Shown here: positions 26,466 through 54,750 of the stretch, piece after piece | Layout of the letters: every line of letters begins with the position of its first letter | Numbering within the stretch: the first letter of the stretch is position 1 | Source: Agelas oroides | Lineage: Eukaryota; Porifera; Demospongiae; Agelasida; Agelasidae | Assembly (NCBI GenBank): GCA_949130485.1 | Contig: OX422191.1 | Span: forward strand, 5,023,754-5,087,753 | Length of the DNA stretch: 64,000 nt | Direction: 5' to 3' | Made by a program: the position numbers and the translations under genes | The notes under the pieces: model-generated | The model's input: the letters and a program-made list of their open reading frames with translations, nothing else | What the model was told of the DNA's origin: nothing | The model's database searches: none

Positions 26466-26466
26466 A
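26413..26466. repeat. (CA)n microsatellite
   Basis: About 24 CA units, longer than the copy A tract at 4531-4585. Confidence 0.9.
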
Positions 26467-27298: not shown

Positions 27299-27770
27299 CA
27301 GGAATGGGTAATTGTTTGTCTACCATAAATTTATGTGAACCATGTCTAGTTTCAAAATTAGCAGACCAATAGGTGCTTGTAATCGTGGGGTGGTTATATT
27401 TATGGGGTGCTAATGAACGGATGTAAATGTTATGGAAAAGTACAATTGTAGGGAAACATACCAGCTATAAATTAGACCTACAGGTTGATCTTACTGTTAT
27501 TTCATGTTCCATGTTCTTAGCTTTTATGGAATCCAAGATACAGAAAAATTCCAGCAAAAGTTAGCCACTGGGCTCGAAAAGCCATATCAACAATTCACTT
27601 CAGTTAAATGCAGTAACGGGTGCCTTTTTAAGTGGGGTGTCTAATTTGCATAGGTGTTTATAAATGCAATTTGGTTGTTGTAATCAAATTAGGTGCCAAT
27701 ATTCACGGGTGCTTATTTTGTGTGGGTGCCTACTATCCTGGGCACCATCAAGGTTTTCGTTGCTTGCAGT
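27299..27770. other. Copy-B-specific segment of about 470 bp
   Basis: Present between GGTGCATGCAC and GCAGTAGGCTAC, which are directly joined in copy A near 5418. No inverted ends or coding capacity identified. Confidence 0.6.
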
Positions 27771-28113
27771 AGGCTACGAGCTTATGCAGGGTCGCCCCAT
27801 TTCACCACTGACAGTGCAACTTACTTTGATGCCTCTGAGTCTTGGTTTAGTATCAACACAACAAGTGCCGCTGATTTCCCATAGTACACGCTCAGTGAAG
27901 CTACCGGTCGTTCTTCCAGAAAGCCACTGCAGTCGTAGGGATTATCGACCTCGAGTGTAACATCACATGGGAGTGTATGCACAAGACTAATTGAATATTC
28001 AAGCAACCGCTCTTCCCCACTTTTGCCTCAAAGTAGTGTGCACAAAGGGGGGTATATTTTTGGGACCTTACGGTATGTACCCCTAAAGAAGACAACTGAA
28101 TGGCTGAACTCAC

Positions 28114-28206
28114 CCGCTTAGCTTAAGCTTCTGAAGGCTCTGGTTCACTTGGACACCTCTTACCAGTGCACACAAACCTATAGCTGAGATGTTGTTGTAC
28201 CTGAGA
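28114..28206 (-). CDS. NLR leucine-rich repeat exon 7, long form
   Basis: A 93 nt exon starting LRYNNISAIGLCALVRGV and ending with the extra KLSG-type residues. Phase 2 on both sides, donor GTGAGT. Copy B partner of 5768-5860 (V/G change). Confidence 0.75.
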
Positions 28207-28345
28207 CTGCAGAAGGTCGGGCAACAAAAAAAGGAGTTGGTCAAACTTCAAAAATGTATTATATACTTCATGCACTTAACACTAATTAGCCCATTAAGCC
28301 CTATAGTGAATATTTTGGTTACATCATACTGTACTGCTGCAGCAC

Positions 28346-28660
28346 AGAAAAGGTTCTGCATCAGCAGAAAGGGTGGGACAGTGGGAGGTGGGTGGGATCA
28401 CCCACAGGGTGCTGTGCACATGGCAGCTGCTAGGCTTGGCTGTAAAAGGGCCATGGTTCGACCAGGTGGGCCAACTCTTGCCCTGGCTGCATGAACAGTT
28501 TTATAAAACACTACTCTCACCTTGTAAGGGGTTCATTTCTGGCAGGGAAGGCTGCTTGGGTTCTGAACGGGTGTTTGCCAACCGAGAATGCTGACTATTG
28601 CATGCTCATTGATGAGTGGGCATGGTTAAGGTCACGAGTCTGCTTATAGTGGCTGAAAGT
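28346..28660. repeat. GGCTTGGCTGTA-core repeat, copy B
   Basis: Duplicate of the repeat at 6000-6330, carried by the segmental duplication. Confidence 0.55.
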
Positions 28661-29399
28661 GCACTAGGGCTCAGTTTTGGAGTCAGAGCTCAGACAGAAA
28701 AGTAGTCTCAAGTGAAAAACAACTTAACTGTTAAAGGGTACAAATGTACTATATAGCTACGTAGCTAAACTTACATTATGTGAGGAAGAATCAAAAATCA
28801 TATTAAGAATTCCTTGTCGGGCCTTGAAACAACACACTGTACACAGTCTCTCTTTACACCAGTTGCCTTTAACATCTGAAGTGGACTTCCGGTACAGTAA
28901 TTATTCTAATACCACATATGATCCAATTTAACGTAAGAAATTCATTTCAAGGAATTTACCACGATTCTGATTCAGTAAGCGGAGTCTTCATTTATTCACT
29001 AATCATAAGATGATGACTGAAGCCAACTTCCAACCTTCGAGGCCTTCCTACCCAGTCTCACAAACAGGTTTCAGAGCTCGACAAAGTACGTACACAATTT
29101 GAGGAAAGGCCAATTGTACACTTACCTAGGTAGCAAAGGGCGCTTGGTACTGCCTTTATTAGTTGCAGAGTTAGACAAGGTCTGTACACGATTCCAGCTA
29201 TACACTTATAAGGCTTGCAAAGCACACTTTTGTGCATTCATGTATTGTGATTCTTATGCAACGTAGGATCTAATTTTAAATAAGAAAATCAATTTCAGGA
29301 ATTTATGATGAATCCAATCTAAAGTCACAACCTAAATATTTTTTAAGCTCAAATAGTATTGGAATAATTACAGTATATCAGCTCTGTACAGTGTGTAGA

Positions 29400-29670
29400 C
29401 AGAGTGGAACAGGTGGAGGTGGGTGGGGTGACAAGGCTGCTGCTGGGCTTGGCCGTAGAAACGCTTTAGGTGGCACTGGGTGGGCCGGTTCTCTCTCCCT
29501 TTATACTTAGACACACTACTTCTCACCATGTAGAGACTCAATTTCTGGTACTAGAAGGCAGTTTGGGATCTGAACCACTGTTTCACTATATAGCCCAAAT
29601 CACAAGTTCTAGTTACAACATTCTTAATGAGTGTAGTTATAGGGTCATGAGTGTGTTCAGGATGGCTGCA
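29400..29670. repeat. GGCTTGGCTGTA-core repeat, second member in copy B
   Basis: Duplicate of 7888-8170. Confidence 0.5.
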
Positions 29671-30116
29671 ACTGACATGAGTTCAGTTTTGAAGTCTAAT
29701 ACTATAGCTGTGAACTTCTCTGAATAAATGCTCCACTGAAAAGGGTGAAATTATTTTAATTTCACACTTACTGATGGAAAAAGTGTGAAAATTGTGTAAT
29801 ACTAATCTGATTGGCAAATGTAAAGTGCTGCCTACGAGGATGTCACAGAAACGTTGTACGGACACATTTTCAATTTTGGGAGGGTAGAAGGCACAGCTCA
29901 CTTCCTCGAACTAGAACATGAACAGCTGGCATGCTTTTCTACCACTACCTGTTGGCAGAACAGTAAAAGTATTGAACGAAGGTGTTCCGTGTCCTTGAAA
30001 GTACAGGTGCTAACTGAATGTTGCAAAAGCGGCCCCGGCACCATATCAAGGTTGCTTGAAAGCTTAGTGCATGCTTTGCTGCAACACCGCTGTGTTCATT
30101 GTGTTTGCATGCAGTA

Positions 30117-30672
30117 CGAGCAAAGTAACCGCACCCCAAGATGCTTATAAGAGGTAATGTTTGCTGGTAGGCCACTGCTACTTAGCTACAATACCTGAAG
30201 TAAGTTTTAGAGATCAGGATTTTGTGCTGCAAATTTACCTGCAGTAGAAAGCCTTAGAATTCAGAGTTTTGTGGTTTCTTAAAAAAAGGTTTACCCTCAA
30301 GGGAGGAGCCAGACATCAGTTTATCAATTGTGAATAGCAAGGCGCGCCTTCACCTCCTTTATACTCACGCGTAATATCAGCCCGAAGCGCAGTAGCGTGC
30401 TCAATACACGCAATGATTTTATACGTAGTATATTGAACGTGTGACGTCACGTAAGCGGAAAAATCGCTGTGAGGGGTGACAGTGGTGTAGCTGGTGAAGA
30501 GTTGTTGGTGTACCAAAGTTTCATTCATGGGGTAAGTGCACCATGCCATTAACGAATATCAACTCAGGTTGGATGTTCAACGCTTCCTCTGGACTGTGTA
30601 TTATATTGGGTTATATTAGTTATATTATATTATTTACGCGGGTCATTTAAGTTGCATCTTGGGGTGTAACTA
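30117..30672. mobile_element. CACCCCAAGATGC-ended insertion in copy B
   Basis: About 555 bp absent from copy A at about 8623. Near the ends are CCGCACCCCAAGATGC and the inverted GCATCTTGGGGTG. The exact target duplication is unclear (2-3 bp). No transposase frame. Confidence 0.6.
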
Positions 30673-31082
30673 ATGTTGAATATTACTATGGGCAAGCACT
30701 GGTATAAGCAGGTGTGAATACGAGGCTAGTGTGTCATCGTACAAAAGGTCGGCACATCCTTTAGGTAGCTTCGGTCCTCAAGGCCTTCGTTTTGATGCTG
30801 TTACAATGCAAGCTGAACACAAATAATAAAGCTATAGTTGGGGCGAGCCTGAGTGAGCCCCACACTAGCGGGACTGCATTGCACAGATGTGTGTGTATAC
30901 GACCATTTGTATCATACTGCGTGGGAAGTTGAAAGAAGCCGCCACGGGGTACAAATCCCATGTACACCATGGCGGCACCTGTGATCCTAGTTGCCGCATA
31001 TGGTACAACTAGGTTGCTAAGCAACAGTCCAGCCCGTTCACATAGCAGAAGCCTCACACCAGACTAATTATGATACAAGCCA

Positions 31083-31690
31083 GCTGTACCATGGCTTCTT
31101 AATGGGTATGGGTTGTACCATCCTCAGGTTAGCCTCGTTCCCAGGCCTACCCCGTTTTTTGTTCTTCGTTCAGTATAATACACGGAGGCGGAAGAGCGCG
31201 AAAAACGGGGAAGGCCTGGGAACACTTATCACGTGAATGACGTCAGGTGGACGCGAGGTGGACGTAGGGGGGGAGGGGTCCGCATTTAAATTCATGAAAT
31301 AACGTACTAGACTTCATCATCGAGCGCTCCGTCGCTAGGCAAGACCCCAGACGTTCACAAGATCGTGAGTACTCCGCTTGACCGGTAAGAAACCCGCTCT
31401 CAGGTTTATTGTGCACGTACTTGTAGTCGGGCACCGCCCCCCCCTACGTCCACCTCGCGTCCACCTGACGTCATTCACGTGATAAGTGTTCCCAGGCCTT
31501 CCCCGTTTTTCGCGCTCTTCTACCTCCGTGTATTATATCGAACGCAAACCGAAGAACAAAAAATGGGGTAGGCCTGGGAACGAGGCTATCCTCAGGTTAT
31601 TGATGTCCTTCCTCGGGCTTCGCCATCGGAAGTACATCATCAACCCTCAGATGGTACAATCCCCATACCATTAAGAAGCCATGGTACAAC
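31083..31690. mobile_element. Outer MITE, GTACCATGGCTTCTTAATGG ends
   Basis: About 40 bp inverted ends, AGCTGTACCATGGCTTCTTA on the left and the inverse on the right, surround the 460 bp element inserted at 31129. This gives a Russian-doll arrangement, and the outer element is older. Confidence 0.75.
31129..31588. mobile_element. TAGCCT-family palindromic element, nested
   Basis: TTAGCCTCGTTCCCAGGCC to GGCCTGGGAACGAGGCTA, between 8 bp repeats TCCTCAGG (31121-31128 and 31589-31596). Inside are long inverted arms including CACGTGAATGACGTCAGGTG and its inverse, around an about 165 bp spacer (31272-31437). No coding frame of note. Confidence 0.85.
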
Positions 31691-32194
31691 TATAACATGT
31701 ACGTGCTTGCTTGCGGCCATATACCGTAAATTTTAAATGCGCGTTTAAATATTTCCCGAAAATTTAAACGTCCTCTTGCACTTGCTTGGCAATGCAGGAC
31801 TACTGCCAGAGTGCAGCGTTGGCAACCGCAGCAGAGACGGCTCAAGTTTAAGGATGCACGGGACCTTACTTCTTGTTTGTCACAGCAGCTACGGACCGAC
31901 CATCAACGGCAGGCTGTTCACCGACCATACAAAATTATACACTAAGGGGGTTGAGATCGCTTCAGAGGTAAGTGTCGTGCATAAACGACACTCATAAATG
32001 CTACCGATTTAGCTCGTCATTTCAGCTGCTTGCTCACGCTCGCCCCCACAATGTTCTACATTTTCTAGTATTAATAAGTGATAGCATGGTTTGCTGTGGT
32101 ATTTTGGATTAACAGCACTCGTAAGGCAGTAAAATGCACTTGGCTGCATTATTTCCTGTTTTACTCGTGCTATTAATCCATATGCTATTACATA

Positions 32195-32810
32195 TACAAA
32201 CAAGACTTAAAAACATTAAAATGTAAAAAGATGTAGGGATGGCATGCCAAAAAGTAGGCAAACAAGGTAGGGATAACGCATGAAAGCAAAGTTCAACATA
32301 TTGGCAAACCCCCATCCCTACATCTTTTTCACACTACAGTTAGTGCATGGGGGTCTTCCTAAAACGTACCACAAGTTCACAACCTTTATTACTGGCAGTT
32401 CATGGCTGTAGCCTCGTTCTCAGGCCACCCTTCCTCCCACATGGCCTGGTAATGAGGCTAGTTGACCTTCTTGGTAGCATTATGTTGTACGGAACCTCTT
32501 CAACAACTTAAGCCGTGAGTTGGAGTAGACTGCAGACATGTGATAGTGTCGTTAAAGTACATGGCATGGTTTTAACCTCGTCCCCAGGCCACATTCCTTC
32601 TCCCACATGTTGGCTCAGGAATGAGGCTAATATAATCTAGCAGCATTGCATCAGCTGTAGTGTGAAAAAGATGTAGGGATGGGGGTGGTTTGCCAATATG
32701 TTGACCTTTGCTTTCATGCGTTATCCTTACCTTGTTTGCCTACTTTTTGGCATGCCATCCCTACATCTTTTTACATTTTTAAGTCTTGTTTCTGTACTTT
32801 TTTTATGTTA
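32195..32810. repeat. Inverted pair of AAAAAGATGTAGGGATGG MITEs
   Basis: Two about 150 bp copies, 32195-32342 and 32652-32810, face each other about 310 bp apart. Each has its own short inverted ends (AAAAAGATGTAGGGATGG and CCATCCCTACATCTTTTT). Between them are two short TAGCCTCGTTCTCAGG-like remnants. Confidence 0.75.
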
Positions 32811-33850
32811 ATCTCAGTTACAGTTAGACCTAAGCCTATTTCAAGTGTAATCACAACACCAGAACTTGAAACGGCATTGACAAGTTTAGTAGTGGTTCCA
32901 GGCATGTATCAAATAATTATGTGTAATATAGCCAGCTAGAACCTGATGAAGGGCCAACCACTCTTCCAACCAAACTTTGTGAAACCAATTTCAGTTGTCA
33001 ATCACATGACAACTGACCAGCTGCAGCACAGAAACTACTATCATACTGACAACTGACCATCCTAGAATAAACTGTGAGTAGGCTATTTTTAGTGTAGCTA
33101 CAAGTAGGCAGTTGAATGCAGCGCCTTACCTACGTAGTGTTAATATGCCTTGCCCAATGCTGGCGGGAGGAAAAGACTGTGACAGCCATGCATACTGTCC
33201 ACTGGCGATTTCACTTGTGTACTACTCTCACTTCCAGACCAATGACTGTGGTCTTTGGTCTGGGAGTGAGACTTCGTGTGTGCATGCGTACACAATTAGA
33301 AAACGACGTCCTAAGCAACGCACAGCAGCCTCAGAGTGTTGTGAATGGCTTTTGTTGACCAAGGTAAATTTGAAGCTATGAAGACGCTGAGTGGTCGTAA
33401 AGCTCCGCGCTGTGATAAGCATCAGTTTCGTGCTAAAATTACGGTGAGTGCTTGAACCGTTTTTGAGTTATTTTGTTTGAACAAAAGTCGTAACGAAGAA
33501 AGAAAGAAGAATAAGAAAAATGACACTTTTGCTAGCGCACACGTTTGTGTTTAGCTGTCTTCCACGTGGTTATTGGCCACTTGTATGAGTCTTACTGATC
33601 ACAAAGGCACTCAAAGAGGAAGCCTGGGCGCTTAAATAAGCTTTTAGCGTGTTTGTGGTTAAGTTATACAGCTTTTGCTTAAGTATTGGATATATTGCAC
33701 GTCAGCGCCATCACTACATAGAGAGTCTACCAACTCTCTGATATAGTTCCAACAGAAATAGTTATATGGTATGTTGATACAGATCCATAGGCTAACAGTA
33801 ACCTCCAGCAAATAAAATGCAGATGTTAATGAAAACATTGCTGCACTCAC
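32811..33850. other. Intron sequence, small hairpin, no gene
   Basis: Within the 5.6 kb intron separating LRR exons 6 and 7. A short hairpin (CTCACTTCCAGACCA with its inverse) lies at about 33226-33272. Overlapping open frames at 33112-33381 show no recognisable protein. Confidence 0.5.
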
Positions 33851-33934
33851 TTGAGCTCCTTAAGGCTTTGGTTCACTTGCAAAGCGCCAGCAAATTTACG
33901 GGCTCCTTCATCTGAGATCTGGTTGTAACTGAGG
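33851..33934 (-). CDS. NLR leucine-rich repeat exon 6
   Basis: An 84 nt exon starting LSYNQISDEGARKFAGAL, acceptor CTGTAG, donor GTGAGT, phase 2. The closest of all repeats to the ribonuclease-inhibitor-type consensus. Confidence 0.87.
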
Positions 33935-34054
33935 CTACAGAATGTCAGAAAACACCAAATAAGAAGTTGAAAGAACTTGGGAGTAAAAAAACAGAGGTCA
34001 ATCATAAATCTCCATGAATGCATATGTGCTGTAATCTTCCCCCTAATAACCAAC

Positions 34055-34138
34055 TTTAGCTCCAGAAGACTCTGGTTGACTTGCAAAGCTCCAGCAAATT
34101 CACGGGCTCCTTCATCTGAGATCTGGTTGTAACTGAGG
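34055..34138 (-). CDS. NLR leucine-rich repeat exon 5
   Basis: An 84 nt exon starting LSYNQISDEGAREFAGAL, acceptor CTACAG. The donor reads GTTGGT, the weakest in the array, so skipping is plausible. Phase 2. Confidence 0.82.
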
Positions 34139-34272
34139 CTGTAGAATGTCAGAAAAAACACATTTAAAGAAGTCAAGTGTACTCAAAAGTAAAAAAAGGA
34201 AGGTCAAACATAAATCTATATAAATGATTCCGCTGTAATCTTTTCCACTCCTCCCCTCTACCCAAAACTTAC

Positions 34273-34356
34273 TTTAGTTCCTGAAGACTCTGGTTCACTT
34301 GCAAAGCTGCAGCAAATTCACGGGCTCCTTCATCTGAGATCTGGTTGTAACTGAGG
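34273..34356 (-). CDS. NLR leucine-rich repeat exon 4
   Basis: An 84 nt exon starting LSYNQISDEGAREFAAAL, acceptor CTACAG, donor GTAAGT, phase 2. Confidence 0.85.
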
Positions 34357-34551
34357 CTGTAGAATGTCAGAAAAAAAAAACAACGTACTCAAAAGTAAAA
34401 AAGGAAGGTGAAACATAAATCTACATAAATGATTGCGCTGTAATCTTCTCCACCCCCCCCCCCCCCCACCCCCCCACCCCCCAACACACACATACACACA
34501 CACCCTCCCCATCAAACATGCCAGCTTGGTAACCGCTTCGGCTGGATCCCT

Positions 34552-34620
34552 GGCAGTAGCTCAGTTGGTTACAGCATGGCAGGCCATTTGCCAGGTCGCG
34601 AGTTCGAGTCCCTCCCTGAG
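34552..34620 (+). repeat. tRNA-derived SINE-like head, copy 1
   Basis: Has a box A-like TAGCTCAGTTGGTTACAGCA and a box B-like AGTTCGAGTCC with a 5 bp anticodon stem (TGGCA/TGCCA). Acceptor and T stems do not pair, so this is not a working tRNA. A T-rich tail follows. Confidence 0.6.
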
Positions 34621-34881
34621 TCACTGTCTTTTTTTCCCCTCTTTATTTTCACTTCTCTATTTCTCACCTTTCTCTCTGACTTTGACTTAGGTTTAAGGTC
34701 TGACCATCAGGTCTGGAGCATGTTAAAAAATCTGAGCCTCTGCACCTCGTGCAGGAAGGTCAAACATAAATCTACATAAATGATTGCGCTGTAATCTTTT
34801 CCACACCCCCCCCCCCCCCCCCCCACACACACACCATCCCCATCAAACATGCCACCTTGGTAACCGCTTCGGCTGGATCCC

Positions 34882-34951
34882 TGGCGGTAGCTCAGTTGGT
34901 TAGAGCATGGCAGGCCATTTGCCAGGTCGCAGGTTCGAGTCCCTCCCTGAG
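34882..34951 (+). repeat. tRNA-derived SINE-like head, copy 2
   Basis: Better preserved: TAGCTCAGTTGGTTAGAGCA (perfect 4 bp D stem) and GGTTCGAGTCC. The anticodon loop lacks the expected T at position 33, and the acceptor stem does not form. Confidence 0.6.
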
Positions 34952-35124
34952 TCACTGTCTTTTTTTTCCCCTCTTTATTTTCTCTTCTCTATTTCTCACC
35001 TTTCTCTCTGACTTTGACTTAGGTTTAAGGTCTGACCGTCATGTCTGGAGCATGTTAAAAAATCTGAGCCTCTGCACCTCGTGCTTCGCGCTCGCCGCAA
35101 CCCCCCCCCCAACCCAAAACTTAC

Positions 35125-35208
35125 CTTAGCTCCTGAAGACTCTGGTTCACTTTCAAAGCTCCAGCAAATTTACGGGCTCCTCCATCTGAGATCTGGTTGT
35201 AACAGAGG
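35125..35208 (-). CDS. NLR leucine-rich repeat exon 3
   Basis: An 84 nt exon starting LCYNQISDGGARKFAGAL, acceptor CTACAG, donor GTAAGT, phase 2. The exon ends in G, so its last codon joins as AGC. Confidence 0.82.
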
Positions 35209-35410
35209 CTGTAGAATATCAAATAAGAAGTACAAGTACTCAAAATCTCAATCCCCCTTTGTGTTGCATATACCCCCGGTAGTATCAAATGTATGTATAA
35301 GTGTCATCTGCAGGCCCTTCCTATTTTTATGATTTCAGCATAGACCTGCGAACAACATTCTCGGTGTACAACTCTTAAGAAATAATAAGGACATGAATGA
35401 CTGGACTCAC

Positions 35411-35494
35411 TTCAGCTTCTGAAGGCTCTGGTTCACTTGCAAAGCTCCAGCCAATTCACAGGCTCCTATGTTTGAGATCTGGTTGCCACTGAGG
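35411..35494 (-). CDS. NLR leucine-rich repeat exon 2, damaged acceptor
   Basis: The 84 nt unit reads LSGNQISNIGACELAGAL with donor GTGAGT, but the acceptor that is CTGCAG in its relatives reads CTGCAT here. The first AG available is six bases inside the exon (CCTCAG), which would give a 78 nt exon still in phase 2 and two residues shorter. The exon is therefore either skipped or shortened. Confidence 0.6.
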
Positions 35495-35757
35495 ATGCAG
35501 TATGTCAAAGAACAAGAGATGAGTGGTGGTTTAACAAACTTCTTCACACTTTATGTAAGGCATATTTGGTCTTGGTACCTTACTACTGACACACAGTATC
35601 AGACACTGTGTGTCAGTTTATCAGTTAGTGAAGTAGAAGGTTACTCCCTGTGTGATCATTAGATTAGAGTAATGCAGAACATACAAGATGTGCATATATC
35701 ATAGTCTCAATGAAGACAGAAAAGGACCTGAAGCAGGATGTGAATCACTGGACTCAC

Positions 35758-35841
35758 TCTAGCTCCTGAAGTCTTTGGTTCACTTGCAAAGATCCAGCCA
35801 TCACACGAGCTCCTTCATCTGAGATTTGGTTGCCATTTAGG
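35758..35841 (-). CDS. NLR leucine-rich repeat exon 1 (next to NACHT)
   Basis: An 84 nt exon starting LNGNQISDEGARVMAGSL, acceptor CTGCAG, donor GTGAGT, phase 2. It is the first complete LRR exon after the NACHT exon. A truncated remnant of another LRR exon end (AAGCTTCTGAAAGC on the plus strand) lies at about 35980-36003. Confidence 0.82.
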
Positions 35842-36052
35842 CTGCAGAATGTTAGAGAACAAGAGATGATAGGTGGTTCAACAAACCTCTTCACTTTATG
35901 TAAGGTATATATTTGGTCTTGGTACCTCACTACTGAGACACAGTACATCTCTTTATAGAAGTAGGACATGGCTAAACTCACTTATTAAGCTTCTGAAAGC
36001 TGGACAAACAATATGCTTATATAGTGCATTGCTCACATGTGCTCACATGTGC

Positions 36053-36100
36053 ACACATACACACACACACACGTACATACACAAACATGTACACACACAC
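36053..36100. repeat. (CA)n tract at the end of the NACHT frame
   Basis: An ACACAC run read on the minus strand as a Cys/Val-rich tail of the NACHT open frame. This tail is probably intron. Confidence 0.8.
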
Positions 36101-36103
36101 CAC

Positions 36104-37694
36104 AGTTTCTGAAATACACCACCATCAGGTAGAATGGAATATGCTCTCAGCCATTTTGCCATCATCTCAAATGTCAGGGATCCAAATAGGCACTGGTGAA
36201 ACTCCAATTTACACATCAGTCCTGAGTAGTATACAGCTTGAAATATGTGATGAATATCAAATGAGGTCAACAACTGCTTCTTAAAAGTTAGCTCTGGCGT
36301 CATTACATTTTGTAGCTCCTCAATGGCTACTTCAGATTCACAGGCTGCATACAAAAATATATCCTTGTGGGCCAGAATAATATATGCTTTCTTAGATGAG
36401 TTGCATAGTCCAACATAAAACTGTCTCACATATTGTGGTACTGTTTTTGCATTCAGTATTGGGATATGTTGACGATGTGGAAGGGTGAGGATGTGTAGGG
36501 CACAGAGGTAATACTGAAGCAGCGGAAGAGTGAAGCAGCAACGCTTAGCTGTGCTCATCATGGTGTGGTATGGTGGAGAGACTCGGCTACAGAAGTTAGT
36601 GTAGTCATGGTCCCAATCAAAAGTGGAGTTAGTACTGGTCACCGCATATGCTTCAGAGGCAAGGATGGTAAGGGTGTCATGGCCTGACACACCTGACTGT
36701 CTACGCAAAGAGTGTTTGAGGCTAGAGAACAGCCTGGTCCATGTTCGTGGATTAGCGTTCACACTATCTGACATGCTAGACAGTCTAAACAGAGAGTGTT
36801 TGAGGTTAGTAAACAACTGGGTCCATGTGTTTGGAAGATCGCTGGTGCTCACACTGTCAAACACAAACAGCACAGCAGCAAGGTAGGGTGGACTGGAGCA
36901 AAGTGCTCTAATGTCATGTGCTTCTGAGATGTACATGAGGAACTCCTCTGCCCTGGAAGTATTGTAACGGTAGTGATGAATGACTTGTTTTGAGATCTGG
37001 TCCTGAGACAGACCAAGTACGTCATACTGACAAAGATTCAGATACTGTGTTCCATACCAGGCAAAGCTGTTAGGGTCCTTAATCTGGATTGGACTTGTAA
37101 CAGTTAAAATGACAGATACTTCAGTATCAGCTAACCATTCAAGAAAAGATTTCCATTCACTGTAGGCTTGCCCCTCAGCACCATCAATCACAATGAGTAC
37201 ATCCTGTGTACCATGCCTCTCTAACCACTGTTTAATACTGTCTAAATGACTGCCCCGGGGAAGACAATAGTTCAGAAATGTCCCAAGGGATTGACTAGAT
37301 GGTGCACTAAGATGAGCCTTCAGGTCTAACCAAAGCACTAGAGTGAACTTCCTGAGGCAGAACCCTCGAGCCCAGGATGCACACACCCTCTGGAGCAGTG
37401 CAGTCCTCCCTGAGCCAGGAGAGCCTTTGATGAGGAAGAAGCGATCTTTCTTCTTTGCTACCGTATTCACAAACAACTTGATGGATACAGTCTCAATCTC
37501 AGATGAGAAGTGTTCAAGTGTCTCAAAGTGAGAGGAGTAGTCAATGTTTCTGAATTGTTTGTCTGTGTCCTTAGTAACCTTCCCCAGCCTTCGATCAAAC
37601 TGTAGGAGTTCTGGAGCTCCAGTCCAGAGTGGTTGACTCTCTTCTGACAGGTAAGCCTCTTGGAGCAACTTGCGAGTTTCTTGCACTACAACAT
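36104..37694 (-). CDS. NLR NACHT ATPase exon
   Basis: This exon encodes the nucleotide-binding core of an NLR, which in the family binds ATP/dNTP and drives oligomerisation on activation. About 90 residues in is the Walker A loop GSPGSGRTALLQ, preceded by FFLIK; about 75 residues later comes VLIVIDGAEG, the Walker B position, where the usual DGLDE is DGAEG. The 5' end follows a CATACAG acceptor in phase 1, matching the phase-1 end of the exon at 38450. The 3' end is uncertain: a phase-2 GTGGTG donor after FQKL at 36104 fits the next LRR exon, but donors near 36118 are possible in another phase. Helical sequence after the core (to SLTFEMMAKWLRAYS) resembles the winged-helix/superhelical linker before LRRs. 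Confidence 0.85.
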
Positions 37695-38449
37695 CTGTAT
37701 GGGAGAAACAACTTTGCTTTAACCTAAGCATTAAAAGCATTTTTACTTGCCTCATTCCTATGTCCCAGCCCAGCTTTCTGTCGCTTACAGTACGGAAAAG
37801 TGGGAGAGGGCCTGGTATCTCTTCTCACGAGTGAAGTCAGAATGGAAAGGATGGAAGTAAGGTTTTAGCAGGTGGCAGCTCTCATACACACCAAGCATTG
37901 AGAGTGTAGTCAGATGAACAATACGTGAAATGCTGCCTGTTCTAAAAATTTTCCCCCATTTTCTGATTACATCATGTGAGGAAAGATACCAGGTTCTTCC
38001 TGCTTTTCTTGCCAACTTGTGACTTTTTTGAAAGACAGGTTAGTCTCGTAAGCCAGGCCCTTTCCATTTCCATAGCAGCACTGATCGCATATCGGATACA
38101 AGTATTGGAAGCGATCAGCGCTGTGGAAAGAAAGGATCTGGCTTGTGAGACTAAGCCAACAGTTTGTAAGCATAAGCAAAGCAGATGCAGCCCTCTTCAA
38201 ACAAGCATATAAATTGATGGTACAAAGGTCACTAATTAATAAAAATAAATTTTAAATAGCTGATGCCCACATGGTTGGATAGAAAAAATTGTTTGTGAAA
38301 CAATGGTTTTATTATTATGGGGGATAAAATAGGAGGTAATGTTGGTGTAATCTGTAAAACCATTACCACAATAGGGGTTAAAGTACTTGCTTGTGTAATC
38401 AATACTGCAAAGATTGATATAAAAATTAATCACTCCAGCTCTGTCATAC
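37695..38449 (-). other. Intron of the NLR gene
   Basis: GTATGA donor, CATACAG acceptor, phase 1 on both sides. It contains the MITE at 38041-38153 and AT-rich sequence; nothing coding is supported. Confidence 0.7.
38041..38153. mobile_element. TAGTCTCGTAAGCC-ended MITE
   Basis: A 113 bp element with ends TAGTCTCGTAAGCCAGGCCC and the inverse of CTGGCTTGTGAGACTA. Related ends occur near 40989, 50205 and 51033. No clear target duplication. Confidence 0.65.
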
Positions 38450-39970
38450 CTGGTGTCAGCATCTCCAGAACAGCTTCTACCAAGTCAAATGGAGCATGAG
38501 CCAGTAGACATGCAATGAGATTCTTGTATGTTCCTGTGTCAGGGTTGATCTGCTTCCAGCAGTACAGAACCCTGTATCTTTGTGCACCTACATCTGGGTA
38601 GCAATGGGCCAGCTCCTCTGCTTCACGTTCACTAATGCCAAAGTGTGGAGCCAGCTCTCTCCAGTCTCTCATGTGTGTTGCCAGCTGCTGAAGAAATGAG
38701 TCTGAACAGAGCTCTTCTATCCTTGATTTTGGAATGCTTTCAAGAAGGCCTTTTAATTGACCTTTCTCCTTGCTTGTGAAATGTTCTGCTCTCTGGTTTA
38801 TGTAGCTGTCAAATCCCTTAGCTGTTGTACCACTCTGACCAGCACTGGGACCGCTAATACTTTGTGTTGAGTTTTCAATTCTCTGAGGGCAGTACCTTCG
38901 AATGTCACTAATAATAACGTCATCAATTTGTAGTTCCACAATTCCTGCTTCTGCTAGAATCTCCAAGTCCTCATCACACAGTTCTTGGAAAAGACCAGCA
39001 ACACTTTCAGGAACGAGAAAGGTGAGAATGAGTGATCCTTCACTGTGCTGGGCATGCGTCACAAACTGATGGTCTATGCCAGTTGCATCTTCAATCACTG
39101 TTCGAATTCTCTTAACATCGAAAGCCCTAGCACTTTCAAATACTATGTCACCATTGCACTCCACACGCAGCCTCTTGCGTCTGGTCAGATCCAGTCTCTC
39201 ATCTGAAACTGGGTTTGGCATGTCCTTGAGCAATCTGTTGCTTGGGTAGCGATCATGGTATTCCCGAAGTAGACTCTCTGCTTCTTTGCATTCAAACCTC
39301 TCAATGATTGCCTCAAGGAGTCCAGTCTCCATGTAGTTGATGTACTCTGGGACTAAGCATTCCATTACTTCAGAAACACTACTGGTACTCTTCAGGATAC
39401 GCTGATCTATATAGGTCATCTCAGGATCCAGCGGGTGACAAAGGAAGTGAAGAAACCGCAACAGTTTCTCAAGGTTAACTACTGTTTCTATTACTTCTGT
39501 AATCTTGTCCATTACTATAGCAAAGTAATTAACAATTCTCCTTTGTTCTTGAGAAATAACTTTCCTTGGCTTTAATGCTTTAGTAGTGCTACTTGACTCA
39601 GACATTTGTTCACCTCTGCTCCTTAGATGCTCTGAACTTGGAGGTGGCAAGTTTTCTTCTCTGGACATAGTGGGCCGGATATCGTACTTTCTTGCAATCT
39701 CTTCAGCAATGACACTCTCACCAATGTTCTTAAGTGCTTCATGAATAGCTTCTAATGTTGGTTTCTCAGAATTACTAATCCAGTGCCGAAACATTTCAAA
39801 ACACTGCCTGTCTGCAGTGTCATGCATCTTTTCAATGAAACCCAAAGTGTCCTTACTGATGTTTAGCTTTAGGCCGAGTAGGTACCATTTCTTAAAGTCC
39901 CTCAGTTCAGTAGGCAGTTGACTTGGGGTTGGGAGACTAGTGTTGACATCCTTTGGTGGCAAGACTGACC
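38450..39970 (-). CDS. NLR exon with two Death domains
   Basis: A 1,521 nt exon, phase 1 at both ends (acceptor TGCTCCCAG, donor GTATGA). Residues about 18-100 form a Death-fold domain (WYLLGLKLNISKDTLGFIE, then FRHWISNSEKPTLEAIHEAL). The middle, about 140-400, is a less typical region with an unrecognised helical part (FLHFLCHPLDPEMTYID) and a mixed part (GSLILTFLVPESVAGLF). About 405-508 is a second Death-like domain (WRELAPHFGISEREAEELA, then VLYCWKQINPDTGTYKNLIA). Death domains make homotypic contacts in apoptotic and immune assemblies. It joins upstream to the CARD-like exon through a codon completed as CGG, and downstream to the NACHT exon. Confidence 0.85.
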
Positions 39971-40276: not shown

Positions 40277-40577
40277 GGTAAGAATCTGACATAGCATCGG
40301 CAATGTACACCAGGGATGGGTCCCTTCTCACCACTGACAGAAACTTGTGTAAAACAGAAGGGTTTACCATTATCTGGTCCTTCACAGCAGCTACTAGTTT
40401 TGATGCCCTATGATATGCTGATGGTCCCATGATTTTCACTATTTCGTCACGAACTTGTGTACTGATCATATCTTGTGAGTGGAGCTCAAATGCCAGCCAC
40501 TCTGGATGTGAAAAGGACTCCACTAGTTTGTTGCAGTAAAGGTCAAAAACCTTCAGTTCGGGAGTGCACTGTGGGCC
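40277..40577 (-). CDS. NLR CARD-like exon
   Basis: A 301 nt exon, phase 0 at its start (acceptor CACCCTCCAG) and phase 1 at its end (donor GTAAGT). It encodes about 100 residues in a six-helix pattern typical of the CARD branch of the death fold: FDLYCNKLVESFSHPEWLAF, SQDMISTQVRDEIV, ASKLVAAVKDQIMVNP, LHKFLSVVRRDPSLVYIAD. I call it CARD-like rather than CARD because only pattern and length support it. Phase 0 fits the linker exon at 47987-48096. The acceptor could also be nine bases further in (GCCCACAG) without changing the frame. Confidence 0.7.
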
Positions 40578-40739
40578 CTGGAGGGTGAACAGAACTACAG
40601 CATAGTATGTTTGGAGATTGTATAGTTGCTACTGTGAGCTATATAGTGGCATGTTAAATAATGCGGTCATCTGTAAGGCTACATCAGAAAAGGTGGCTAC
40701 ATTATCTGCTTCATGTGGTGAAAGTTGAAATGTGGGTAA

Positions 40740-48161: not shown

Positions 48162-48563
48162 GTGCACTCTCTTGCATGACAGTCTGTTGTAAGATCACTC
48201 TCTGCACCGGTTCAGGCAGTGGTGAAGGTGGGAAAATATCAGTCTCAGAATGGCCACCTATGTCTGATTCAATTCTCTCAACTTGACAGTACTTTGCTTC
48301 CAAAACAGCAGCTGAGTTAGTTGCTCCCACCATTCGACTCCTGAGAGCATCTACAAGAGCCTTCCAGCTGGGATTGTCACCAGTGGTCAACCAGGCATTA
48401 AGCATCTCTCGGAGCTGGTCTTCAGGGGTATTGAACTCTGTTCGAATACAGTTCAGTCTTCCAGTCCTCACTTTCAGCTTGAGCCCAAGGTTATACCACT
48501 GTGCAGCTACGTCCAGAACCTCCTCCAGCACACAACCAAGGTCATCTAAAGTCAGCTTGTTCC
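48162..48563 (-). CDS. NLR N-terminal Death-domain exon
   Basis: A 402 nt exon, phase 1 at both ends (acceptor CTGATCATTCAG, donor GTAAGT). Reading from the join: NKLTLDDLGCVLEEV, then WYNLGLKLKVRTGRLNCI, then LREMLNAWLTTGDNPSW and KALVDALRSRMVGAT, a clear Death-domain pattern of about 85 residues. A Pro/Glu-rich tail (FPPSPLPEPVQRVI) follows. Phase and direction make it the natural next exon after the 2A leader at 54294; the completed codon is GGG. Confidence 0.82.
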
Positions 48564-48714
48564 CTGAATGATCAGAAATGGAACTTTGTGATAGTATACT
48601 TTACAAGAGCATGGTTAGTTTCACTCCAAGACTGCTCCCACTTTGACCACTCACATGCAGCCTCAATATATACAGTGATGCCATAGGCAGAAAGCGGACA
48701 TTATGGTAGGCTCT

Positions 48715-49705
48715 TTCTTTCAAATTGTCGATGACCACATTATACTAGTAGTGGGTCAAATACGCGATAAACTAAATGCATTGCGCGATAAAATGCCCAC
48801 ATTGTGCAATAACTGTGTTACATCACACAATAACTGTTACATCTCACTATAAAAAAGTCATCGCGCGATAACCGTTACATCACATGATGACATGTGGTCG
48901 GTCACATGTACAAAGGCGTGGCCTTGCACATGCAGCAATGTGTAGTGAAGGTGTGGCCATGGTTTTATTCCTTTCTTAAGTCTGAATTTAGTGTGAGCAG
49001 TATTTCATTGAGTTTGAAGGTTTACTGGGAATTTGATGAAGTTTCCTTTACGGAGTATGCAGATGCAGCATATGCATGAAGGTAAAAGAACATAGCGCAC
49101 AAGTACACTGTACAATAGCTGACACCGATTTAAGATTCACTAGGAACAAAGGATATGATATTGTAAACATTTTTAGCATACACCTGCGCTTAGATGGCAA
49201 AAGTCAACATGCTATACAGTGTGCTATCATTATTCCTCCCTTCAAAAAGACATAATTATACTGGTACTTGTATGGTAAAGTCTCATACCCAGGTTTACAT
49301 GAACTGTGCTTGCAACATGACGAGAGTTGCTTGGCTGTTAGTAGCCGTGCCTTACTGGCATGTGGCCATGCTTTTGGCGTGGTCTCACCGCAGCTGCGTG
49401 AGACTGTTTTTGTGTCATCGCATTTTGACTTTGCATGACCACTTGATGTAATACAGTAATGTGACAGTTATTATGCGATAAAATTTGCAAAAGTTATGTC
49501 ATCACATGATGTAGCAGTTATCACACAATGACTTGTCTTTATTGTGAGATGTAACACAATTATTGCGTGATGGGTATATATTTATTGTGCAATGTAACAC
49601 ATTTATCACATGGTGTGGGCATTTTATCTCACGATACATTCCGTCCATCATGTGATGTAACCCACTACTCACATGATGTGGTCATCGGCAATTTTGAAAC
49701 AAACG
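48715..49705. mobile_element. Foldback element rich in CGATAA motifs
   Basis: Ends ATTGTCGATGACCACAT and the inverse ATGTGGTCATCGGCAAT. Arms of more than 200 bp are built from many degenerate GCGATAA / TTATCACA / TGTGTTACATC units that alternate in a partly tandem way. A unique 500 bp centre (about 48905-49450) has no recognised gene. It lies in the intron between the 2A leader and the first Death exon. Confidence 0.75.
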
Positions 49706-51738
49706 GCCTACTATAGGGTATTGTAGACCTCAGAACAGTGAAAAACCAGGCAACCTAATGATCTGTGACCGGTGTATTTACTAAATCTCTAACCTGTGAC
49801 TGCTGCATGCATGCACTGGAAAAATGGATTTGTTAAGCATACAGCAGCAAGTGAGTGAACAGTGCCAAATAACAGACATGTTCCATTGCTATGGTTTGAA
49901 GAATGCTGTATACTGTACTTTACATGAGTAAACAATAGTTTCTAACATATTTACGTATACACGTCACTCTCAACACACTTTTGTCCATGATAAAAGAGCA
50001 AAAATATACACAGCATGGTTGAACACTTGACACAGGACATGCTACTGAAAAGAAGCCCACATCTTTACTAGTCATGTGCCAATGGAGTGAGCCCGGTACA
50101 CTGCAGAGGTCGAAATTACGTGCGGTCATCGGTCAAATTCCGCGCGTTTTATTACAATGACCGACCACAAATGTAAGTGGTTGGTAGGCATGACCGACCG
50201 TTCGTAGTCTCACAAGCCCGAACTAACTGGTACGGATCGCTTCCAGTAGAGACGAGACGAGGCAGACAGTACCAAGAAACTACACCTCAAGTAAACTACC
50301 TTCCGTAAGTGACAGCACGAGCCTGGTCGCGCGCTCAGTATGTTGTTTCACATCTCATTTTCATGCGCTGGCATGCAATGTCGAGTAGCTACCGGCGTTT
50401 CCACCGTTGTATCTTGTTCAGACTTTACTGGCTTCTCTCTGACTATTTTGTAGGTTCATTTCGCTATCGATGGGTCACAATCAATTTCTGTCGTAGCCAC
50501 GTGGGCATGCGCATCGGGCTAAAGGTTATATACACTGTCGTCATTGTAGAGGTATATACAGATATAAAATTGGATGACTGTGACAAGCACGTCCAGACAG
50601 ATTTTAAAAATGACCAGTCAACATCAAAAGTGCTAGGATATGTGACCTTATTTCAACCTCTGCACTGCATCAGCTGCATAACATCAAAGGTAGATACTAG
50701 GGCTTAATTACATGTGGGCACAACCTGAAATGCACCTATGCAGCTCAGAGTTCACAGTTAATTGTTATGGAAATGTTAGCAAACTAGGTTCTCAGTGAGT
50801 CAGACACAGCATCTACTTCTGTTTCAAAGACCAAATACCGCATAGTGGGTACTCTTGCAGGCTTGATCCATCATATTAAAAAGACTTTTTGTGGGTAAAA
50901 CTTTCACGACAAGTAAATTTATTCACCAAGTGCAGAGTAAGCTAGCTAGTCTCTACCAGAGATGCTTACAATTGAGACCTTTGCCAAGCTACCTAGTGTA
51001 GTTATGTCGCCATCGGCAGCATGGACTAGTCTCACAAGCGAAAGTGGACTGGATTGTGGCTCATGGGAGACTAAGCACAGACAGCATCAGGCTGAACTGA
51101 GAAGAGAATGGGCCCTCAGAGTATTCTAACTGCCTTCAGAAGATGGGTATTGCAGCAGCAATGGGCACAACCCTCTGTAGAACTACACTTACATGGATAT
51201 ACATGATATAGATTTTCTTAAGCTAATTTTTTTGCAGCTCCCACTCAACTGCAAAAATTACACACTCACAAAACACACCTCCCTATAACAGGTTGGTTGA
51301 GGGTGCTTGCAGAGTAGCAAATCACTCATGGATGCATAATTAAATAATGGCAAGAGCTACATCAAACACAGCACTTGCCAATACTTAATTAGGCACGCAT
51401 GAGTGATTTACTCACCACCTGCAGTAGTAGGAAATAGTAGACACGTCATGAATATTGTTCAGTGGGGTTCAGGGTCAAAGTCCAGCCTGCTAACAACAAT
51501 GCAGAGCAACAACATGGAGCAGGATCTAGAACCTTGAGAAATATCCCATCAAGCTATACTCTTAGCAGTACTGTTATGTGCTTCAAAAAAGACTGGTTGT
51601 ACATGGTTACAGACAAAGTCGAAGAGACAGTGGTTACCAGAAGTTTATTTTGGCACTACAAACTACACTCAGAGGAAACCATCTTACAAGCATAATCTTC
51701 GGATCTAACCAAACATTTGTAAGGGAGTGACCTGCAAC
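49706..51738. other. Intron sequence, no gene supported
   Basis: A plus-strand open frame at 50309-50707 has no domain or start support. Scattered TAGTCTCACAAGC-like MITE ends lie near 50205 and 51033. Inverted short repeats with ACTCATGG/GCATGAGTGA occur around 51310-51410. Confidence 0.45.
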
Positions 51739-52041
51739 TAAGTTTCGTTCCCAGCCCGCATGCGCCTCCTGGTGAGAAACGGTCCGGTGAACAAAGTTGA
51801 ATTTCTTGGACTTATTACCAAAAAGCGGTAAGGACTAATGAGTCATTACGTAGCACTTCCCTTACAGTAAAATTTGTTCATCTCCATTCAAGTATCCGTA
51901 CCTTTTTTGGGTGGGTTTGCTGCAAAATGTTTTGAACGTTGCTAGGCTACACTGTCGCAAAAGCGTGCGCTAGCCAAGAATTTGACTTGGTTCACCAGAC
52001 TGTTTCTCATTGTGAGAGGGTGGGGTCTGGGGACAAGACTA
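51739..52041. mobile_element. TAGCCT-family element with CCTGCAAC duplication
   Basis: A 303 bp element from TAAGTTTCGTTCCCAGCCC to GGGTCTGGGGACAAGACTA between 8 bp repeats CCTGCAAC (51731-51738 and 52042-52049). This is an independent confirmation of the 8 bp target duplication. Internal inverted GGTGAGAAACGGTCCGGTGA / TTCACCAGACTGTTTCTCA. Confidence 0.82.
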
Positions 52042-52531
52042 CCTGCAACCATCAAGGGGTCAATTGTAACACTTCAAAAGATGTTCTAGGACTGTCAGTA
52101 TACTAAAACTTGAACCTCTCAAATACTGCCTCTTCATTTTGTCAGCAACCATGGTAACCACTCTGTGGTTAAGACAACCAACTTCATTTATGCAGTGCAT
52201 GCATGCAAAGGCAACCCTTTAAGTAAGTCAAAGACAGCTTTGGAAGAGGATTAAATGTGTTTGGTGTTGGGCTGGAATCTGATTCTTGAAATGTCGACAG
52301 TGGACAAACAATTCAGAGAATTTTGTTGAAGGAGGCTCATCTTAATCCAACTGCAACACTCATTGTAAGGGACGAAAATGCCATAGCCAGTGAACCTGAT
52401 TGAAACACTATGATTTGTTCTGTATTGTGAGCTGAGTTGTTGACCCTGAGTCAATAGCAGAGAGGATGTTGGTTTCAAACTCTCATGGTAGTTAATTGTG
52501 GGGGTGCCCAACACTTGCAGCTTTGACACTA

Positions 52532-53406
52532 CTCAGGCGCGTTAAGGAGTGGGTCCAGCTGTTTTGCGTGCGCTGCCTAAATTACCCTTAGGGTGGGCGT
52601 TATCTTACCACAAACAGGAAGGTGGTTGTATCTATGTAAACAATGCGGAACCTTGGAATGCAATTAAATACCTTCGCTATCACGGTACAGATGGACCGTT
52701 TTAGGCTTGTACTCTTCCTAGTGGTCTTGTCCTTACCTTGTTCGACTAAACATGATGCGATACGCACGTCTGTAACACTAAAAGTCATTCTGCAAAGCGC
52801 TTCCAGCAATTTTCAACGCTTCTATAGTGGAGTCACGTGCACCATGTACGGTAGCACGTGCCAGCTACTCTTGAATAAGCCGCATAATGGCTGCTTTTCC
52901 GGAAGTAACTCATGCGGAATTCTTCAGAAGAGAGCTGGAGTGTACTATTGGGTTTGATGGAGACGAAATCTAATTGTCTTTGATTTCACTGTGAGAAAGT
53001 TTTGTAGCTTACCGCTAAAGGTACGAAGTGGAACTTTAAATGCCCGGTGGGCGTGGCATATTTGCCAGTTCCAGCGTTTTGGAAAGCGACATCGACAATT
53101 CCCACGGATAGAAAGTTGGGCCAGTTGAAATAGAACTCATTGGTACAAAAAGAATCGTGAAATTTTGCTGGGGCAAATTCCGCATATCGCGTTTATTGCA
53201 CTGATATACCCTGAGGGAGGGGCTTGGTACAGCTAAGTTGTTTGTGGGCATGGCCTAAAATTATGTCACAGTAAACAATAAGGGTGGGGCTACATGTAAC
53301 AACACTAAACAATTACTTTAAGCTTCTTCATTTGTCATAAAATTGATACAAATTTTGCCATAATATAGCCTCAGAAGCCCTGGACCCAGTCCTTAATGCC
53401 CCTGAG
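52532..53406. mobile_element. CTCAGG-ended non-autonomous DNA element, copy 2
   Basis: An 875 bp element from CTCAGGCGCGTTAAGGAGTG to the inverse CAGTCCTTAATGCCCCTGAG, flanked by TA. About 27 bp inverted ends. Homologous to 9711-10492 along most of its length, in the same orientation. Confidence 0.75.
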
Positions 53407-54178
53407 TATCATAACTATATATGTGTGTATGAAAAATGTACCATGCTCCTCCCTCTTCTTGTGGTGAGGAACCCTGAAAATGAGGCTACATCGTTAATAC
53501 CTTAATACCTTGCGTTAAGGTGGCACACTACCATGTATTTTCAAGGTCAGCAAACCTGGAATCCAAGCTGATAGAATTTTTTGTCTTTGTAAACTTTTAG
53601 CGCACAGTCCGTTTTGGGAGTCTTCAACCGTTCACTGTCCGTAAAAATTGGGGATTTTCCCCATTTCCTGTTGGCATTGGCATCCAATAATCAGTTTATA
53701 AAAAAAATAAAAAGAGGAGTTTTAGTAGAGTGCTGTAGTGTCAGTAGCTGTGAGTAGTGCGTAATGCCTGCTTGTGAAAGCTAGCTTGTGTCTAGAAACA
53801 GCAGAAAGGCCACAGTGGCCAAGACTGTACTCACTGGGTAGGCCTAGGTCTTGTGATCGTATGCCAAGCCTAGTAGGTGACCGTAGCCCGGTGCTTCGAG
53901 TGCTGGTCTGGGCTTTAACTAGAATGCACAATATATCATTGGTACTACGCTGCAGAAGACAAGAAAGCTGAAGAGTTGTGTGTGGAACAGAACCGTGAGT
54001 TGTTTAGTGACATAAGGGGGAGAGGTGGGGCTACTAACGTTTGCATACATTGGTGTTTAAGACACTACCTACAGTGAGCATGTAGATGCGTCCATCGAGT
54101 GGCAATTTTGGCTCATGAATGTGTTAATGAGCTGCTAAAACCTTTTTTTAAAATTAGGCAAAGCAAGATTGCCTTAAA

Positions 54179-54201
54179 GCAAACCCTAACCCTAACCCTG
54201 A
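54179..54201. repeat. Short telomere-like (CCCTAA) run
   Basis: Three CCCTAA-type units (AAACCCTAACCCTAACCC). Too short to mark a chromosome end. Confidence 0.7.
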
Positions 54202-54293
54202 AACTAGGAGTAACCCTGGTCCTGACTGTAACCCAGGTTTATGTTTTCGTTAACCTCCGCCGAGAGACTTCACTGCCACCTTAATATACTCAC

Positions 54294-54750
54294 CAACAGG
54301 TCCTGGATTCATCTCTATATCCCCACTCATCAGCAGTAGTAGAACCACCACTGCCCCTACCACCATCCTCCCTAGACCTGAAGGAATGGTGAAACCTGGG
54401 CTGGAGGAAACACTGCAGACACTGGTATGGGACGAGGAGCGTGACAGACACCAAATGTTTGACTTCACTATTTCATTCTGGAGGGCCATGGCTGGTAATA
54501 CGTTGTTTAGAGATGGTAGCATGAGGGGGGCATGTTTGAAAGCTGTGTTATGTAGGTGAATACACCGTCGATCCATGGGGTTCATGTGGTCTGTAGTGGC
54601 TAGCTGCACGTTTTCAGCTGCTATTACCAACATTGGTAGCATGAAAATACACATGGCCACAAGAAAGGAATGACTAGGGGTCACATGACCAAGTTGGCAC
54701 TGGAACCGAGGGTTAATGCACCGAGGACGTGACCTTCGGAAGGCTCCCAT
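54294..54750 (-). CDS. NLR leader exon with 2A translational recoding motif
   Basis: A minus-strand frame from ATG 54750, 152 codons plus one base, ending at a perfect GTGAGT donor two codons after the motif. Residues about 131-141 are a hydrophobic run (VVGAVVVLLLLMS) directly followed by GDIEMNPGP, the complete D-I/V-E-x-N-P-G-P signature of 2A/CHYSEL peptides, which make the ribosome skip the Gly-Pro bond. An internal ATG at 54366 would give a leader of only 23 residues, close to a signal peptide plus 2A, and a good acceptor (CCATTCCTTCAG) lies just upstream at about 54379, so the 5' part may be an alternative or spurious extension. An earlier hydrophobic stretch (FLVAMCIFMLPMLVIAA) is in the longer form. 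The phase-1 end fits the Death exon at 48563. Joining is inferred across 5.7 kb. Confidence 0.68.

Follow-up and report, generated by a model that had tools for sequence, protein, structure and literature searches.

Nucleotide-binding, leucine-rich repeat (NLR) proteins that begin with a StopGo (2A) signal are known from the sea urchin. There, the 26-residue leader SpNLR2A6 gave about 80% skipping in vitro; cargo behind the wild-type leader was cytosolic, with about 15% in the medium, while a skip-dead mutant directed cargo to the Golgi and raised the fraction in the medium to about 44% (PMC4981915). A 2026 PNAS paper still describes StopGo as very rare among cellular genes and cites this sea-urchin NLR case (PMC12846837). 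Here, we describe a candidate NLR gene from the sponge Agelas oroides, whose first coding exon is a long leader ending in a 2A motif. It lies on the minus strand of a 64,000-nucleotide stretch of DNA (assembly GCA_949130485.1, contig OX422191.1, positions 5,023,754 to 5,087,753), which was analyzed at full length and is called the window below; positions are counted from its first letter. An earlier sequence-only reading of this DNA had pointed to the N-terminal 2A-like targeting signals described for sea-urchin NLRs.

The leader exon starts with an ATG at 54750 and ends at base 54294, with 151 codons up to NPGP followed by GTT G. The core D-I-E-M-N-P-G-P occupies 54321-54298 (minus strand) and is the single D-x-E-x-NPGP in the window when all six frames are scanned; after its final proline come GTT G and the end of the exon. 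A GTGAGT donor begins at 54293, leaving the exon in phase 1. The acceptor of the Death exon (...ttctgatcattcag|GGAACAAGC) places the first exon base at 48563 and needs 2 bases, again phase 1, and the exon closes at 48162 with a GTAAGT donor. The predicted junction 54294|48563 would read NPGP-V-G-N-K-L-T-L-D-D-L. On the same strand, Pfam matched Death at 48157-48600 (PF00531, E=5e-9), two Death stretches in 38433-39983 (PF00531, E=1.4e-18), NACHT in 36046-37824 (PF05729, E=6.3e-9, 36.3 bits against a cut-off of 26.7), and the leucine-rich repeat (LRR) family LRR_6 in 33850-34182 (E=5e-11), with more LRR places found by tblastn downstream of NACHT. The candidate splice phases from leader to NACHT are concordant (1, 1, 1, 2). 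The sequence-only reading had proposed a hydrophobic run plus GDIEMNPGP before a phase-1 GTGAGT donor, accepted in phase 1 by the next Death exon on the strand. All of this was confirmed; its junction (54294/48563) and its range (48162-54750) are exact to the base as far as sequence signals tell, and its assignment to the NLRs agrees with the NACHT match (PF05729) and the C-terminal LRRs. Thus, the reading of the window exon as the leader of an NLR gene, with Death, Death/Death, NACHT, and LRR exons on one strand and in agreeing phases, is supported at the level of prediction. The parts of the gene, all on the minus strand, are as follows.

54294..54750, minus: leader exon, coding part, from the ATG at 54750.
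54613..54669, minus: H1, the first of two hydrophobic segments (residues 28-46), which follows an Arg-rich start and resembles a signal peptide or signal anchor (Kyte-Doolittle hydropathy, ratio of nonsynonymous to synonymous substitution rates (dN/dS), low-confidence model helix).
54451..54534, minus: conserved central core (residues 73-100; HAPLMLPSLNNVLPAMALQNEIVKSNIW, also written LPSLNNVLPAMALQN), dN/dS 0.25 and 0.29.
54322..54366, minus: H2, Val/Leu-rich run directly before the 2A core (residues 129-143; hydrophobicity, dN/dS).
54298..54321, minus: StopGo/2A core DIEMNPGP (residues 144-151), predicted skip between Gly150 and Pro151, key residues invariant.
54288..54293, minus: splice donor GTGAGT, phase 1, from its sequence signal.
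48162..48563, minus: Death exon, phase 1 at both ends (PF00531, E=5e-9).
40277..40594, minus: exon from open reading frame (ORF) 40, ends approximate, without a Pfam match, lying between the Death and Death/Death exons in the paralogous loci L040 and L053.
38434..39970, minus: exon with two Death matches, acceptor in phase 1, weak donor candidate in phase 2 (PF00531, E=1.4e-18).
36046..37723, minus: NACHT exon, acceptor in phase 2, 3' end approximate (PF05729; 77% identical NACHT in L053).
581..35870, minus: scattered single-LRR exons, probably of the leader gene (LRR_6, E=5e-11 at 33850-34182; tblastn places).

Because the window gene is spread out, its parts from leader to NACHT taking up 18.7 kb and its introns containing other ORFs, its paralogues matter. 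Two of them, L033 and L034, have no intron between leader and Death: a single open frame (350 and 316 amino acids, respectively) continues past NPGP into the Death domain, which Pfam places at residues 174-252 of the L034 frame. At C1:4194, C11:2376493, and C1:3199354 (contig and position), the leader and Death matches have equal frame lengths, as judged from the tables only. A phase-1 donor was present in 33 of 35 distinct leaders, the other two being the fused ones. Among the leader-Death pairs that are split, an in-phase candidate acceptor was found in all 23 that could be read and was the sole candidate in 17 of these; the pairs are close paralogues rather than independent cases, and the test required Death in the fetched sequence, so that 10 leaders with no Death in the fetched stretch were left out. 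L053 has the parts in compact form: leader, Death, ORF40, Death/Death, and a NACHT 77% identical to that of the window follow one another on one strand within about 7.5 kb, and L040 repeats this order as far as Death/Death. In L041, L045, L047, L049, and L054, the leader is accompanied by Death, by two pieces resembling Death/Death, and by a NACHT at about 33%. Across the 19 leader loci L040-L058, for which about 8 kb each was fetched, the Death exon was present in 16; the other three (L044, L050, and L052) have a Death match further out, at 7.3, 7.7, and 12.7 kb. L059 is compact, with a leader exon, a short intron, and a single frame of 1249 amino acids; in this frame, NACHT and LRR score above their Pfam cut-offs and Death (E=0.0011) scores below its own.

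The same association was seen across the genome (259 Mb in 141 contigs). It holds 67 leader copies at E<1e-6, and a same-strand Death match lies within 10 kb downstream of 54 of them, compared with upstream matches for 1 and other-strand matches for 0 of the 67. The motif D(V/I/L/M)ExNPGP occurs 285 times, and its reversed pattern, used as a control, 0 times. The leader-Death association is not due to chance. For neighborhood counts, we used the 263 listed motif sites and 300 Death matches from two queries (150 scored of 786 candidates and 150 of 610), making the counts lower bounds. A same-strand Death match lay downstream of at least 137 of the 263 sites within 10 kb and of at least 147 within 15 kb; at these two distances, upstream matches numbered 7 and 20 and other-strand matches 0 and 2. 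When the sites were shifted by 30-300 kb in 200 runs, the mean at 15 kb was 21.6 and the maximum 33. The Death-linked sites, at least 147, comprise 51 of the 59 long-leader sites and 96 of the 204 others. Clusters that are Death-linked without the long leader were found on C1 at 1.4-7.4 Mb (39 of 50 sites), C3 at 0.3-0.83 Mb (13/16), C8 above 6.5 Mb (21/22), and C7 at 2.9-3.4 Mb (3/5); outside these four clusters, 20 of 111 sites without the long leader are linked to Death. The lead-in of one C3 member is of another kind (MADTGIIGVCLLLEVCAVVLVLLLMAGDVERNPGP, counted from the last Met), its frame continues to the edge of the locus, and a Death match about 2.4 kb downstream scores just below the cut-off (21.9 against 22.6 bits). 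In the C3 tandem cluster, L060 (1313-1501) and L061 (797-1171) represent a second leader type, possibly short like those of the sea urchin, followed at about 2.4 kb by a Death-like exon. As for the 67 long-leader copies, the motif is intact in 59 that fall within the listed sites and in three more that were read directly (L022, L032, and the place of L028, read as L058). A leader at C1:3098107-3098529 that has no intact 2A, 216 bp before a Death match, provides a natural loss for comparison.

To describe the leader itself, we compared 34 distinct copies that met the script criteria; the search pattern tolerated changes at seven of the eight motif positions, all except the first Pro of NPGP. 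The 2A motif was intact in 34 of 34. Variation in the octapeptide was limited to position 2 (I in 24, V in 9, L in 1) and position 4, and D, E, N, P, G, and P were invariant; the window motif DIEMNPGP fits the D(V/I)ExNPGP core, as do those of the 33 leaders with V or I at the second position. In the sequence-only reading, the leader consisted of a hydrophobic run and the 2A; both are there, and what it overlooked is a separate upstream segment, H1, and the conserved core. Defined as the highest-scoring 17-residue window of its region, with no shuffled control, H1 reaches a Kyte-Doolittle mean of at least 1.6 in 34/34 leaders (lowest 1.62), and the stretch between H1 and H2 attains only 0.35-1.44 on this scale. 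The distance from the end of H1 to the last Pro is 92-108 residues (median 105) in all 34, despite linkers that drift. In L006 and L007, about 12-13 residues of H1 are lost, with a hydrophobic stretch and the 2A core retained. The hydrophobic lead-in H2 is likewise present in every one of the 34 leaders; it is short, with basic residues before it and acidic ones after. No Pfam family matched the leader, the central core included. An AlphaFold model of low confidence (mean predicted local distance difference test (pLDDT) score 53.8) contains three helices (25-56, 59-67, and 124-141), with most of the remainder unstructured.

Regional dN/dS was calculated by the Nei-Gojobori method, pooled over pairs and without confidence limits, for the 18 leaders of the contig-C9 group and for the 16 more diverse others. 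The eight codons of the 2A core gave 0.067 in the diverse set. In the C9 group and the others, respectively, the ratio was 0.24 and 0.43 for H1, 0.17 and 0.48 for H2, and 0.25 and 0.29 for the central core, where constraint is similar to that in the hydrophobic segments. For the linkers, it was 0.49 and 0.83 (residues 47-72) and 1.5 and 1.03 (residues 101-128), and for the N-terminal 27 residues 0.85 and 0.78. Given this modular pattern, the leader looks translated and selected in modules, and these comparisons support maintenance of the 2A motif by selection.

Relatives of the leader are also found among public proteins, with 329 at E<=1e-3 and, in a profile search, at least 777 at E<=0.01; among the matches listed, nearly all come from European Nucleotide Archive (ENA) metagenome-type sources. 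D(V/I/L)ExNPGP is retained in 134 of the 136 homologues listed, and in 118 of these 134 the motif is followed by V-G-E, a trace of the GTTG|GTGAG donor. In one homologue, P0064, a short tandem expansion with GRMVV as the repeat immediately precedes H2, and the 2A core beside it is intact. Several contigs that encode leader homologues match in length (1888383, 557106, 275198, and 191978 bases) contigs listed for NLRs of the L059 type, which hints that leader and NLR may sit on the same contig there. In bacterial and archaeal genomes, 55 pattern matches yielded 0 confirmed leaders, and 0 fused leader-NLR proteins with the motif were present among the 120 homologues listed for the L059 frame.

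We propose that the first coding exon of a large NLR gene encodes a leader of about 150 residues ending in StopGo/2A, which splicing would join in frame to the Death exon, with the other Death, NACHT, and LRR exons following. What the proposal builds on was read from sequence: the 2A motif and the exon that carries it, the join in frame, the leader family, and the selection on H1, core, H2, and 2A. If the leader behaves like SpNLR2A6, from which we infer that skipping occurs, how often it does so, and where the two products go, most ribosomes would skip at NPG|P, freeing the leader, and the receptor would continue as a separate chain starting with Pro. That receptor, having no targeting signal, would stay in the cytosol. 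When the bond is formed instead, the receptor would retain its leader, and the hydrophobic segments would direct it to the membrane of the endoplasmic reticulum (ER) or into the secretory route. We consider it reasonably probable that, as the sequence-only reading had proposed, a single NLR gene would in this way yield both a free, skipped receptor and a leader-bearing one.

Several observations weigh against this reading. In the window, the leader-to-Death intron is 5.7 kb long, the Death-to-ORF40 intron contains further ORFs on both strands, and the donor candidate near 38434 is weak. Within the roughly 8 kb fetched for each, a NACHT match was obtained in just 6 of the 19 leader loci L040-L058, L050 being left out of the count for having only two weak matches of 25-27 residues. 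The aligned start Met is absent in 5 of 25 leader loci (L003, L029, L033, L034, and L037), which would therefore start further upstream. Of the 67 leader copies, the one at C1:3098107 is without the motif, the motif listing being complete there, and four on contig C11 fall outside the sites listed, leaving their motif undecided; among these four, C11:4058847 has eight stops. In the C9 group, dN/dS of the 2A core is 0.45, because the tolerant positions vary. One of the 67 leaders has a reverse transcriptase (RT) match upstream within 3 kb. Lastly, a Death-NACHT ATPase would have no obvious function in the ER lumen.

Since a NACHT in the lumen is without a clear job, we kept two alternatives that leave the receptor facing the cytosol. 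Skipping could be near complete and serve separation only, the receptor always being cytosolic and the selected product being the leader, as a small membrane or secreted peptide made along with each receptor. Purifying selection on H1 and the central core apart from 2A fits this, and a conserved core would be needless for a bare targeting switch, but the core could equally aid targeting or skip efficiency, and the leader matches no known peptide family (0 in Pfam); we regard this alternative as unlikely, though worth keeping. Alternatively, H1 and H2 of the unskipped product could insert as a hairpin that anchors the receptor at the ER, facing the cytosol, until skipping frees it. Such a tether would suit a cytosolic ATPase, 34 of 34 leaders have two hydrophobic segments, the model has helices at 25-56 and 124-141, and transmembrane NLRs have been reported for sponges (PMC12909245). 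However, H2 is short, its basic residues before and acidic residues after fit the opposite orientation, and the mean pLDDT of the model is just 53.8, so we find a tether rather improbable.

The other two alternatives deny the leader its function. Were the leader a decayed relic, its motif would persist merely because the copies are recent. The contig-C9 copies are indeed 72-86% identical to the window leader, the linkers are near neutral in the diverse set (0.83 and 1.03), and there are the eight stops in C11:4058847; yet H1, core, and H2 are constrained, six key motif residues are invariant down to 45% identity, and 33/35 leaders have the donor in common, making decay very improbable. The 2A exon could also be the 5' end of a non-long-terminal-repeat (non-LTR) retrotransposon that came to lie near an NLR by chance. 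Apart from the single upstream RT match, this has in its favor some weak leader matches in frames of 528-2390 amino acids, as expected of retrotransposons, and 3 of the 263 2A sites (C2:14865774, C5:9692675, and C7:4325040) that lie exactly 1757 bp before an RT match and have no Death match; these three are probably retrotransposons carrying the motif in the same genome. The sequence-only reading had named RT downstream of the leader as the finding that would speak for a retrotransposon; the 149 RT places used (from 150 scored of 2738 candidates) include none within 10 kb downstream of any of the 67 leaders. The 63 ORFs of at least 130 amino acids around 19 leader loci gave 23 Death, 6 NACHT, and 0 RT matches, and leader and Death are read in a single frame in L033 and L034. 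Because no leader had RT downstream among those places, the retrotransposon explanation fails for the leader family. A retrotransposon origin of the leader exon was rejected for the gene as it stands, and we give chance placement of this kind almost no weight.

Within the proposal of two receptor forms, the position of H1 suggests a further, speculative step. About 65-70 residues occupy the ribosome-translocon complex, and some translocating nascent chains inhibit the skip and enter the ER as the fusion (de Felipe et al. 2010, PMC2978324). With 92-108 residues between it and NPG|P, more than that span, H1 would be outside the ribosome and could be bound before the decision to skip. The skip might therefore be a readout of ER docking, docked chains failing to skip and entering the ER and undocked chains skipping and staying in the cytosol; we hold this only tentatively and think it unlikely as matters stand. 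If it were true, the leader would be a self-consistent switch whose ratio of products tracks the translocation capacity of the cell, and ER stress or infection would move the receptor between compartments across the whole NLR repertoire.

Other features of the window were recorded as well. Segmental duplications in the LRR region (381-8625 versus 22979-30117, with pieces 94-98% identical, and 12250-16034 versus 15013-18799, 99.4% identical) multiply the single-LRR exons. By eye, the P-loop of the window NACHT (36046-37824) reads GSPGSGRT, with Arg for the usual Lys; that of L059 is GAPGVGKT. Inside the Death-to-ORF40 intron, a minus-strand frame at 43586-44704 resembles, by eye, a transposase of the Tc1/mariner type, and the plus-strand frame beside it (42546-43490) had sub-threshold Pfam matches only. 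A further minus-strand frame at 61485-63998 matches DUF6589 (E=7e-16).

With at least 147 2A sites that have a downstream Death match, compared with about 22 by the shift control, spread over several clusters, 2A looks like a main feature of the immune receptor repertoire of this sponge. Since the long leader separates the targeting segment from the skip element, crosstalk between translocation and skipping, otherwise known to us from artificial constructs alone (PMC2978324), becomes testable in a natural gene. 2A leaders may also bear on the reports of membrane-bound NLRs in sponges. In the listed part of the open-access literature, with subscription papers mostly outside, the sea-urchin work was the sole study of 2A in NLRs that we noticed; the systematic survey of eukaryotic 2As by Rao et al. 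may include such genes. NLR leaders with an active 2A were thus already known from the sea urchin, and the window leader is an elaborate variant of them; new, as far as seen, are the scale on which they occur in a second genome, the length of a leader that occupies its own exon and has several selected modules, and the H1 spacing.

Set beside the described systems, the closest is SpNLR2A of Strongylocentrotus purpuratus (Roulston et al. 2016, PMC4981915), which has in common with the window gene an N-terminal D(V/I)ExNPGP after a Leu-rich hydrophobic run and its place in Death-NACHT-LRR genes of many copies (85 of 241 in the first count of that paper). The two differ in length: the 14 leaders tabulated there have 26 residues, whereas the window leader has 151 and is not a short leader in that sense, although 2A within the N-terminal region is also mentioned for the sea urchin (PMC4981915) and longer leaders may exist there. 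With 26 residues, the whole signal would be within the ribosome at the skip and nothing need be outside; the window leader adds a second hydrophobic segment 92-108 residues upstream, a conserved core, and an exon of its own. 2A-bearing non-LTR retrotransposons share DxExNPGP before RT, and such sites exist in this genome, but their RT follows 2A within the same element, whereas Death and NACHT exons follow the window leader. Sponge NLRs (PMC12909245 and the Amphimedon report cited there) form large Death-NACHT-LRR families, some with predicted transmembrane segments; the text of PMC12909245 contains 'recoding' 0 times, and its passages on these genes do not mention 2A. The artificial polyproteins of PMC2978324 resemble the window leader in having an N-terminal signal well upstream of an internal 2A; they are man-made reporters, whereas the window leader would be a natural form of this arrangement.

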